Positions 6,986 to 40,033 of a DNA stretch of 45,291 nucleotides are shown here, piece after piece. Each line of letters begins with the position of its first letter. Position 1 is the stretch's first letter. The notes under the pieces were generated by a model that was given only the letters and a program-made list of their open reading frames with translations, was not told the DNA's origin and ran no database searches. Made by a program: the position numbers and the translations under genes. The stretch is taken from the NCBI GenBank assembly GCA_031289275.1, contig JAITPV010000252.1, forward strand, positions 1 to 45,291, given 5' to 3'. The stretch is from Tannerella sp. (GTDB taxonomy: Bacteria > Bacteroidota > Bacteroidia > Bacteroidales > Tannerellaceae).

Positions 6986-7633
6986 TCATTTTTTTATGAT
7001 TCCCAGCGCCTCCAGCAACTGCGGCTTGTCATATAACGCTACGCGGGCAATCGCTCGAAAATCGCTAAACCAGTTACATACTTCGTCGATGGCCGCATCG
7101 CGTTCCAGCGTGGACTGTTGGGCGCCGCTTGTTTCCGCAAGGCGTTTGCTGTGAAGTTGCGACACTTCCTCCACCTTTTGATACTCCTTTAGCAGGCGTT
7201 CCGCCGTGTAGCCGTACTTCGACATCACCTCCAACGCTTCGGGCGACTGTAGGTTGGTGTACATCACATGGGCGTCATTCAGCCAACCCGACAGGCTGCG
7301 TTTGCGTCGGCCGGTCGCATTGAAATCAGGCAATTTCCCGGGCTGATTCTTGAATGCCACGCGCACCACTTTCAACGTAATCATATAGTCGGTATAAGCC
7401 GTAGTACGCAATTTCTCCAGTTCGTTCGTTGCCACATACCGGTCGCTGTATTCTTCCGAATGACGCGCCACTTGGCCCCGGGCTTTCTTCAACAGTTCTT
7501 CACCCTCGGTTATACGCGCGGTCGTATAACCGTAACCGTTCATGCGTTCAAGGATTTCGGGATGGTTCCGTGTACCCAAAATACCGTTCTCAATGTTATG
7601 CAGCCGTGCTGCATCCGTCAAATTCTTTTTCAT
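6986..7633 (-). CDS. Hypothetical alpha-helical protein with internal tandem duplication
   Basis: 215 aa; halves align: HPEILERMNGYGYTTARI... / SPEALEVMSKYGYTAERL..., and VVRVAFKNQPGKL / IARVALYDKPQLL. Confidence 0.8.
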   Translation of the reverse strand: MKKNLTDAARLHNIENGILGTRNHPEILERMNGYGYTTARITEGEELLKKARGQVARHSEEYSDRYVATNELEKLRTTAYTDYMITLKVVRVAFKNQPGKLPDFNATGRRKRSLSGWLNDAHVMYTNLQSPEALEVMSKYGYTAERLLKEYQKVEEVSQLHSKRLAETSGAQQSTLERDAAIDEVCNWFSDFRAIARVALYDKPQLLEALGIIKK

Positions 7634-7669
7634 ATCCTGTTCTATTATTATAATGGTTGTTTATATGGT

Positions 7670-7942
7670 CGTGCAATATTAAAATATCCCGGTACATTCC
7701 CGTAGAATCGAGGTGCAATGTTAAAATACTCAGGTACATGCTTAAAATACCCCGGTACGGAGTGAAAGTATCATGGAACATGCTAAAAACAGCGTGGTGC
7801 AATGTTAAAAAATACCGGTACGGAATCAAAATAGCGTGGTACGGAGCCAAAACATCCTGGTACAGAGTGAAAGTATCCCGGTACGGAGTGAAAATATCCC
7901 GGCACATGCTCGCAGCAGCATGGTGCGTCCGGAAATGAAACC
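7670..7942. repeat. 21-bp tandem repeat array, 13 units, no indels
   Basis: Units begin at 7670, 7691, 7712, 7733, 7754, 7775, 7796, 7817, 7838, 7859, 7880, 7901, 7922, e.g. GGTACGGAGTGAAAATATCCC, GGTGCAATGTTAAAATACTCA, GGTACATGCTTAAAATACCCC. Confidence 0.95.
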
Positions 7943-8129
7943 ATCCATGCACCATCTTACTACAGTATTTTGTGGAAGCCCGGCGGCGCTCCCTTCGGGT
8001 TACGCGCACAACAAGCCTTTCCCTGTCTTTCTTTCCGGAAAAACAGGGAATCCCCAAGTAAAATGATTGTGGATTTTCTTGTGTAATTAATTGATTTTTA
8101 TTACCATCGCGCGTGCGTAACGTCAGGTT

Positions 8130-8169
<40 letters not shown>

Positions 8170-37227: not shown

Positions 37228-39048
37228 TCACAAGATGACTTTACCTGCGAATTTGCCCATTACCACCACATATCTTCCTTTCGGCAGCGGGAATGAATGA
37301 TCTCCTTCGGTTACCGGAATCTGTTCGCGCAGTTGTCCGGAGAAGGTGTAGATAGACACCGTTTCCGCTTTAGGAGTATGGATATACAGGTAGCCGCCAT
37401 AGGCCCAGACTTTGGCGACGTCCTGGGGTGCGAACAGCTCGTTCGCCGTGGATGAGGAATACTCTTCCAACCCTTCCTGTTCTTCCTGTTCTTCCTGCTC
37501 TTCCTGCACGGGAACGACGCCGGATATGGTCAGGCTCAGCGGCTCGTTCAGGCCGTAGATGGTCACTTTGACGACGCCCTCCGCAATAGACTCCAGGTAG
37601 ATGTCTTCGTCATGAGCCGTACCTGTTGAGACGTCCAGGCTGTCTATGTTATACCCCTCTTGGGCGCTGATGATAAACGAGTACGTCGAAGGCACGTAAT
37701 GCCGGCCGGCGGGCGGGTCGGTCACGATACCCGTCACGCGAGGAATCGTCAACTGACGGCGTATATTCGAGGGGGTTGTTATTTCTTGCTTGATTACCGT
37801 GACCTGAACCTTTTTGGAGGTGATGTATATGCCGAATTTATCGTCTAATGCCAGGATTTCGACTTCGTATGTCATCACCTCCTGGCCATAGTTGGCAGGA
37901 AAGAGGAGGGCGAAAGGATCGGGCGCCGAAAAATCAATTTCCTGACCGTTGTAGAATACCCGGTAGTTCTTTCCGACGGAAACAGGTTTTACCGAACTGC
38001 CACCTAATATCGCGTTTAGTTCTGCAATTGTTTCGTCATCAAGCGTAATGGCGTTATCCGGATTGAATGTCACGGAGCCTCCTTGTGGCGGGAGTTCCGT
38101 GTCGTTAATGTTGTTGAGGGGATCATAAATGGCATCCAAAAGCCAGACATAGGCATCCGCGACGCTTGATGTATTATAATGCTCAAGAGGGGACAAGATG
38201 CCTTTGGCTTCTATGGTCGTAAGATCGTGCGTATCATCATACACCACAATGGGATCGTAGGGTTTCTTTGTCTCTGGCTTTATCTTTAAATCTATCGTTC
38301 CGGAAAGGGTAAGCGACGGGTGGTGGCTACCTTCCAGTTTGATTGCAGGGCGGGATGATGCATCAACACCACTCTTTGACACTTTAAGGCCATTTATTGT
38401 AACCGTTGCGTCATCAATGAGCACACCACAAGTAGTTCCTCCGTTGTTCGAGATAAGGTCATTTATTGTAACCGCTGCGCGGTAAATGTGCAAATTGGAA
38501 GTTCCTCCATTTTCCAAGGTAAGGCCATTTATTGTAACCGCAGCGCCGTCAATGAGCAAATTGGAAGTTCCGCTGTTTTGCAAGGTAAGGTTGGTCAGCG
38601 TAATATCACTTTGGTTTCCTGAAATTTTGAGCGCGTAGCCACATGCACCATACCCTGAATACACTGCATTAAAAGTTATGTCCTCAATAGTTACGTGACT
38701 TGCCTGGACATCTAACAGAAAGGCAGGACTACTACCCATATCCACATTTATTGAATTGCCAGACCCTTTAATGGTCACATTTTCTCTGGTAAGGGTGGGC
38801 ACATTATCAACTGTCGCGTCTATCATCACATTAATGGTGACCGGATCGTTGCCTGAGAGACTATTTACAGCATCAATTACAGTTTTTAAATCAGAGAGAT
38901 TGTAGTTGTAGGTAATACCATCATGCTCCACTGATATGTTTGGCTGCGCATGGACTCCCATCCATGCGCATAATAAAGCGCCGATGAGAATCACTGATTT
39001 CATTTTGAATTTTGTATAGTTCATTGTGTCAATTATTTTTTTGTTCAT
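37228..39048 (-). CDS. Secreted beta-helix-like repeat protein with T9SS-sorting-like C-terminus
   Basis: 606 aa; signal peptide; repeated TINGLTLENGGTSNL-type rungs; C-terminal VSIYTFSGQLREQIPVTEGDHSFPLPKGRYVVVMGKFAGKVIL. Confidence 0.75.
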   Translation of the reverse strand: MNKKIIDTMNYTKFKMKSVILIGALLCAWMGVHAQPNISVEHDGITYNYNLSDLKTVIDAVNSLSGNDPVTINVMIDATVDNVPTLTRENVTIKGSGNSINVDMGSSPAFLLDVQASHVTIEDITFNAVYSGYGACGYALKISGNQSDITLTNLTLQNSGTSNLLIDGAAVTINGLTLENGGTSNLHIYRAAVTINDLISNNGGTTCGVLIDDATVTINGLKVSKSGVDASSRPAIKLEGSHHPSLTLSGTIDLKIKPETKKPYDPIVVYDDTHDLTTIEAKGILSPLEHYNTSSVADAYVWLLDAIYDPLNNINDTELPPQGGSVTFNPDNAITLDDETIAELNAILGGSSVKPVSVGKNYRVFYNGQEIDFSAPDPFALLFPANYGQEVMTYEVEILALDDKFGIYITSKKVQVTVIKQEITTPSNIRRQLTIPRVTGIVTDPPAGRHYVPSTYSFIISAQEGYNIDSLDVSTGTAHDEDIYLESIAEGVVKVTIYGLNEPLSLTISGVVPVQEEQEEQEEQEGLEEYSSSTANELFAPQDVAKVWAYGGYLYIHTPKAETVSIYTFSGQLREQIPVTEGDHSFPLPKGRYVVVMGKFAGKVIL

Positions 39049-39782
39049 TATTCATTATTTGATTTATCTTCATTCTTTTCTGTTTCTTTCCCGTGGTGGT
39101 GGCTGAGGGCGTTTTTATAGCGGTCTACAGTCACATTCCAAACCTTGATAAACGGCGCATACGCAGCATCTCCCTCGACCAGCGTCAAGGCTTCGATGCG
39201 TTCGACGATGTCCAGATAGCAACGGTTGGTTTGGCGGCGCACATCCAGCACCTGGAGTTCGGTTTTGCCGGCCGCTTCGTGTGTACGTTCGTATATGGCC
39301 GCTTCAAAATCGTGGTTGGCGCGTTCCAGTTCGTCCACCCATCCGTCGAGGTTCAGCGTTTTGACGGCAGGGGCATACGTTCCGCGAAATTCCTGCAAGA
39401 TATTATAGATGGCGGCTGTTTCTTCGCTGTAGGGTTTAGCGGCCAAATCGCCGTAATGATCCAGCAGGAGGGTGAGTTGGCCGGCTGCTGCACGTTGCAC
39501 GGGGTCAAAATGGTATCCGGCCGATTTCACGGCAGCCGTCAGTCCGCGAAAAATATCGTCGCGGTGTTTGTCTGCTGCGACAAGCGATGTCGTATAGCTG
39601 CTTTTAATGATTTTCTCCAGCGCTTCGTCGGCCTGGGCATAGAGAGCCACAAATACGGCGAACAACTCGACAATGTTCAATGTCTTCGGCGATGTTTCTT
39701 CGACGAACCGTTTAAATTCGGTGAAGAAATTAAACCATTCTTCGTTGCGAAAATCAGTAAGTTTGATTCGTTTAATTTTCAT
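39048..39782 (-). CDS. DUF6261-like hypothetical protein
   Basis: 244 aa; LTDFRNEEWFNFFTEFKRFVE..LYAQADEALEKIIKSSYT..DDIFRGLTAAVKSAGYHFD..KPYSEETAAIYNILQEFRGTYA...GWVDELERANHDFE matches my recollection of this Bacteroidetes family. Confidence 0.75.
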   Translation of the reverse strand: MKIKRIKLTDFRNEEWFNFFTEFKRFVEETSPKTLNIVELFAVFVALYAQADEALEKIIKSSYTTSLVAADKHRDDIFRGLTAAVKSAGYHFDPVQRAAAGQLTLLLDHYGDLAAKPYSEETAAIYNILQEFRGTYAPAVKTLNLDGWVDELERANHDFEAAIYERTHEAAGKTELQVLDVRRQTNRCYLDIVERIEALTLVEGDAAYAPFIKVWNVTVDRYKNALSHHHGKETEKNEDKSNNE

Positions 39783-39834
39783 AGTGTATCATATATATTG
39801 AGTTATTGTTAATTTTCCATATCCGGACAATCGC

Positions 39835-40020
39835 TTGGAGCATCCCACCGTTGGTGTTGATCTTCCCCGAAGTCATTTGGAGCGTCCCACCGTCGGTGTT
39901 GACCTTCCCCGAAGTCATTTGGAGTGTCCCACCGCCGGTGTTGACTTTCTCCGGAATCATTTGGAACGTCCCACCGCCGGTGTTGACTTTCTCCGGAGTT
40001 AATTGAAAGTTCCGACCAAT
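39835..40020. repeat. 42-bp (2x21) tandem repeat array, 4 full units plus a degenerate fifth
   Basis: Units start at 39835, 39877, 39919, 39961 and (degenerate) 40003: TTGGAGCGTCCCACCGTCGGTGTTGACCTTCCCCGAAGTCAT. Confidence 0.95.
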
Positions 40021-40033
40021 GGTCAGAACTTTC
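40005..40033. promoter_or_regulatory. 29-bp near-perfect inverted repeat at the distal end of the 42-bp array
   Basis: GAAAGTTC-C-GACC-AAT-GGTC-A-GAACTTTC. Confidence 0.7.

Follow-up and report, generated by a model that had tools for sequence, protein, structure and literature searches.

In a 45,291-nt stretch of a Tannerella sp. contig (hereafter, the window), a PQLLE-family gene is adjoined by an array of thirteen 21-bp units, and a lag-21 array likewise adjoined the gene in 95 of the 114 PQLLE loci collected from relatives. This association suggests that the gene and an array spaced by two helical turns work together as an undescribed module; a search of open-access papers found no description of the linkage.

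The array and the PQLLE gene in the window

The array occupies positions 7670–7942 and is assigned to the minus strand, that of the adjacent PQLLE gene, since the unit core is oriented to the gene across loci. Thirteen abutting units fill this interval exactly (13 × 21 = 273 bp) with no indel, and degeneracy is greatest in the first and last units. The lag-21 match score was 64.2, compared with a mean of 9.0 and a maximum of 17.8 for the best score at any lag of 10–45 in 300 dinucleotide-preserving shuffles, and TRF called period 21/63 at the same site. The preliminary description of 13 units that differ in sequence while keeping the 21-bp register exactly was therefore right, and the recurrence of unit variants in mixed order, also claimed there, is real (GGTGCAATGTTAAAA, GGTACATGCTTAAAA and GGTACGGAGTGAAAA). 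The array is intergenic, lying between the minus-strand gene at 6986–7633 and the rpsL-rpsG-fusA genes, and faces rpsL. The gap between the array and the start codon (7634–7669, minus strand) is 36 bp, short as in relatives. A TC dinucleotide microsatellite lies at 8128–8168, between the array and rpsL. A CRISPR array was rejected for the window, as the units abut and vary along the length and no cas-like gene was seen among the listed neighbours, which were inspected by eye.

The gene at 6986–7633 (minus strand) encodes a protein of 215 aa with two tandem helical modules, as judged from the ORF, the NF052641 profile and AlphaFold. It is a clear member of the PQLLE family, matching NF052641 with 199.6 bits (E = 4.6e-59) over residues 4–212 and thereby passing the curated cut-off of 80 bits over its whole length. 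The family record gives a name, with function unknown, and no mention of PQLLE was found in the open-access papers searched. The AlphaFold model (mean pLDDT 95.1, pTM 0.77) is all-helical, with each tandem module built on a 56-residue helix (38–93 and 144–199). The closest named relatives come from Tannerella MAGs, at 70–71% identity. The window protein has no Pfam domain above cut-off, and hence no DNA-binding domain recognisable by Pfam, and its model had no Foldseek neighbour at E ≤ 0.001 in the PDB and viral libraries. No Y1/HuH or transposase domain was detected in the 76 PQLLE members searched, PHROGs, PADLOC and PDB sequence searches yielded no usable relative, and searches with a family member gave no match in plasmids (72,556 records) or phages. 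PQLLE proteins are mostly acidic, with a median pI of 5.6; that of the window protein is 9.0. The profile match between PQLLE and distant relatives with Fn3-like tails was significant (E = 1.5e-13). Such relatives occur at L046, L050, L051, L061 and L067, their C-terminal tails being recognised by eye and giving no Pfam hit.

Linkage, orientation and register across PQLLE loci

The loci of relatives were taken from whole genomes and named contigs (n = 114, a few representing the same genome twice), and an array was called near a gene when its lag-21 score was at least 25. Heptamer tandem repeats (e.g. GCTAAAG) must be filtered from such counts, because they mimic lags of 14, 21 and 28. Against the 95 loci positive at lag 21, control lags of 20 and 22 were positive in 4–5 of 114, and lags that are not multiples of 21 gave 0–7. 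Flanks more than 1.2 kb from the gene contained 2 arrays in 358 kb, compared with 94 in the 222 kb closer to it. At a looser cut-off, the array was upstream in 97 of 102 loci and downstream in 5, the T. forsythia group being among the 3′ cases. About a sixth of the loci are without an array, and several of these end at a contig edge. The loci include MAGs labelled Neomarinimicrobiota, Chloroflexaceae, Spirochaetaceae and KSB1 (binning as labelled). The window gene and the relatives 70% identical to it lie in different surroundings, but each is accompanied by its array; gene and array thus act as a single unit. The distance from array end to start codon had a median of 45 bp and was below 35 bp in 26 of 63 loci, a gap so short that the array is likely to lie in the leader or to extend over the promoter. 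No promoter-motif enrichment was found next to the arrays, and motif placement was uninformative.

The units vary by locus, yet they align to a weak common core (such as GTAGCAA, GTAGGAA or GAAGCAA) in one orientation to the gene. Among pairs of unit consensuses with a correlation above 0.6, 149 were on the same strand and 3 on opposite strands, and the joint unit alignment scored 1936 versus 1162–1257 with columns permuted, both comparisons being somewhat inflated by kinship among loci. Loci with more similar proteins had more similar units, the unit similarity going from 0.28 up to 0.86 as protein identity increased (Mantel, 0 of 300), a correlation that could reflect shared descent alone. 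PQLLE paralogs of the same genome mostly differed in their units (mean 0.37 vs 0.29, p = 0.07), which argues against one host regulator. The Paenimyroides unit was found only within the gene's own array, and in Aequorivita there is one additional solo array, beside secA. PQLLE units are without a dyad (mean z 0.09).

A cyclic-profile scan of 72 arrays (~839 units) identified about 2 internal single-base slips, and the remaining apparent slips sit in degraded array ends (positions read by eye). The arrays of two sister species of Prolixibacter show substitutions and a length difference of exactly one 21-bp unit; in a T. forsythia pair, array length shifts by ~125 bp and one slip of a single base is accommodated. 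The register is kept strongly, not absolutely. Selection on a two-turn register, as proposed at the outset, is supported by the recurrence of period 21 in unrelated sequences at the 95 loci, by periods of 41–43 bp in related families and by the whole-unit difference between the sister species. The absence of slips is not by itself proof of selection, because recombinational copying of whole units also preserves length; more weight rests on the period being shared by unrelated sequences.

DUF6261, a third family and solo arrays

A gene of the same general kind lies at 39048–39782 (minus strand) and encodes a DUF6261 (PF19775) protein of 244 aa; just upstream, at 39829–40033 (minus strand), is an array of 42-bp period composed of two ~21-bp modules. 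Just downstream of this gene, a 66-bp tandem repeat at 38385–38603 lies inside the gene for a secreted-looking protein of 606 aa. The window's genome has 12 DUF6261 matches. Upstream arrays of period 41–43 were present at about 25 of 31 DUF6261 loci, and dyads were found in 17 of 26 units, with centres spaced 20.5–21 bp, which indicates a module of about 21 bp here too; at 41 and 43 bp, the period departs slightly from an exact multiple of the helical turn. DUF6261 resembles PQLLE in its upstream arrays of ~21-bp modules and its predicted two-long-helix layout, but differs in having a period of 41–43 bp with dyads, and comparison of the two profiles detected no significant similarity. A third family in the window's genome has a single helical module followed by an Fn3-like C-terminal tail (read from the consensus), and reaches about 30 genes per genome. 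Its helical part matched the second PQLLE repeat with a probability of 80% (E = 1.4e-5), more weakly than the Fn3-tailed relatives matched PQLLE. An array of 21, 22, 42 or 44 bp was the strongest repeat in 46 of 59 third-family loci, some of which are duplicates.

Arrays are not restricted to sites beside these genes. A complete relative (G030, sampled as L312–L331) has 55 DUF6261 genes and 51 arrays of 41–45 bp in 400 kb, a density of about 130–132 per Mb; most are solo and form small families sharing a unit, and dyads were present in 36 of the 40 arrays tested. These arrays lie between genes and favour neither convergent nor divergent pairs. In the window's genome, 24 arrays were found in a 357-kb sample (67 per Mb), a density biased upward because the sample was partly drawn from contigs known to hold family genes. 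Of two relatives lacking all three families, one had 0 arrays in a 187-kb sample and the other 1 in an 84-kb sample, both samples being small. For the unit beside one DUF6261 gene, 52 sites in ~9 arrays were counted, ~8 of the arrays being solo, against 0 for the control, and most of these sites are far from any DUF6261 gene. A second DUF6261-linked unit has further copies next to a different DUF6261 gene and in a solo array, and a double change among them (AAACGCGGCGCGTTT to AAACCCGGCGGGTTT) preserves the dyad. A near-perfect solo 21-bp array of GAATATCCACGATTCTCCATG was observed at L233 2520–2810 (G000:C120) with no array-family gene adjacent; its flanks are mannose-6-phosphate isomerase-like and indolepyruvate oxidoreductase-like genes (named by eye). 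Arrays of 22 bp were also seen beside HU-type DNA-binding genes, at L240 11086–11903 (HU-HIG, PF18291) and L237 2995–3649 (gene named by eye).

Candidate explanations for the arrays

Two of the explanations initially offered for the 21-bp register did not hold generally. Phased A-tracts are unsupported as a general cause by tract counts: A4/T4 tracts numbered at least 0.7 per unit in 35 of 95 arrays (0.75 in the window) and fewer than 0.2 in 21 of 95, and array GC is as high as 79%. Coding of heptapeptide repeats was suggested by 21 bp being seven codons and by open frames in the window, where a minus-strand frame reading YRDIFTP... runs through the array. However, at least one of the six frames was open in 64 of 95 arrays, matching the 65.7 expected from column shuffles, and none was open in the other 31; the gene frame continues across the array without a stop in 3 of 89 loci, and the related arrays of period 41 and 43 would shift the frame. 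The frame in the window is incidental, and coding is refuted as a general explanation, with a chance close to nil. We infer that same-face protein binding, the other initial suggestion, is the best remaining option.

We give roughly even weight to the proposal that the array is a set of phased DNA sites, at two-turn spacing, for the neighbouring long-helix protein, together forming a locus-specific nucleoprotein array. Its DNA sites would be clustered, with one for every two B-DNA turns (21 bp), and would be reserved for the protein of the adjacent gene. The PQLLE protein, whose two long-helix modules lie in tandem, would occupy adjacent units along a single face of the DNA, and the nucleoprotein array thus formed at its own locus might regulate the gene itself, organise local DNA, or both. 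The identity of the binder as the neighbouring protein, its action on DNA and the effect of binding are all inferred. The proposal is supported by the phylum-wide linkage, the fixed period and orientation, the private units and the gain or loss of whole units, as well as by the 21/42-bp modules of related families, by cognate solo arrays at other genomic sites and by an array density that follows the gene families. Against it stand the lack of a recognised DNA-binding domain, the mostly acidic PQLLE proteins, the 3′ arrays, the arrayless loci and the off-multiple DUF6261 periods. A broader reading, which we put forward tentatively and at somewhat below even chances, is that Bacteroidota have an undescribed class of gene-array modules in which the long-helix proteins PQLLE, DUF6261 and the third family each own private two-turn arrays, as sequence-addressed nucleoprotein scaffolds that could reach hundreds in a genome. 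With the same reservation, each module would comprise one gene-adjacent array, joined in some cases by several solo copies elsewhere on the chromosome.

The same observations bear on three further explanations. The module might be selfish or mobile, its protein helping array and gene to spread or expand, with solo arrays as copies and regulation unnecessary. The occurrence of gene and array in unrelated contexts, the many unit-sharing solo arrays in the complete relative and the one in Aequorivita, copy numbers reaching 55 for DUF6261 and about 30 for the third family, and the intergenic placement without preference for convergent or divergent pairs are all compatible with this; because no transposase or Y1/HuH domain was detected in PQLLE, no plasmid or phage match was obtained and the Paenimyroides unit is confined to the gene's own array, we consider it unlikely. 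Rather unlikely, too, is a cis-regulatory promoter or leader array read by another host factor, with the protein merely the regulated gene: the short distance to the start codon fits such a role, but the paralog units within one genome mostly differ, some arrays are 3′ of the gene, no promoter motif is enriched beside the arrays, and the solo arrays show no bias to divergent promoters. An array transcribed with the gene, whose repeated RNA the protein would bind, is improbable. In its favour, the array has a fixed orientation to the gene and lies in the likely leader, and DUF6261 units often form hairpins. An RNA hairpin predicts that G-U should exceed A-C dyad mismatches on the gene strand, and the ratios were 51:34 for DUF6261 and 49:45 for the third family, in which 15 G-U cells come from one microsatellite-like array. 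With that array set aside, the two families combined show no excess of G-U over A-C, although the DUF6261 count alone leans to G-U; the lack of a consistent asymmetry favours DNA, and RNA is disfavoured. PQLLE units moreover lack the dyad, nothing about RNA would account for a period of two DNA turns, and an Rfam search for an RNA family returned nothing.

If the DNA-site proposal is true, a large unstudied class of Bacteroidota proteins gains a readable partner, with the adjacent array naming the likely target and making function directly testable. It would also explain dense intergenic repeats such as those of the complete relative, and would provide many natural protein-DNA pairs with differing specificities on one scaffold.

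Several known systems share parts of this arrangement. Plasmid iterons are direct repeats in tandem, each spanning about two helical turns, beside a Rep gene, and the window array is likewise made of ~two-turn direct repeats beside the gene of its presumed binder. Unlike iterons, arrays of the window type are chromosomal and their unit sequence is private to each locus. An iteron-Rep replicon was rejected, as no Rep domain was found by Pfam and no match in the plasmid records, and the contig is chromosomal, carrying rpsL, rpsG and fusA. RAYT is a Y1/HuH transposase that is linked to REP palindromes and helps REP spread. REP/RAYT was also rejected, given the non-palindromic PQLLE units, the 76 members free of Y1/HuH and the all-helical model; the array families further differ in forming long tandem arrays with a strict period of 21 or 41–43 bp. 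REP and BIME are intergenic dispersed palindromic repeats (PMC3733652), and the DUF6261 arrays resemble them in being dispersed, intergenic, palindromic and linked to a protein gene. TAACTGA heptamer repeats of some Bacteroidetes are also tandem and close upstream of start codons (PMC4679880), as are window-type arrays; TAACTGA, however, is one fixed 7-mer before many unrelated genes, whereas PQLLE arrays consist of variable 21-bp units beside one family. Heptamer tandem repeats were common between genes in Aequorivita (L193–L231) and in L150.
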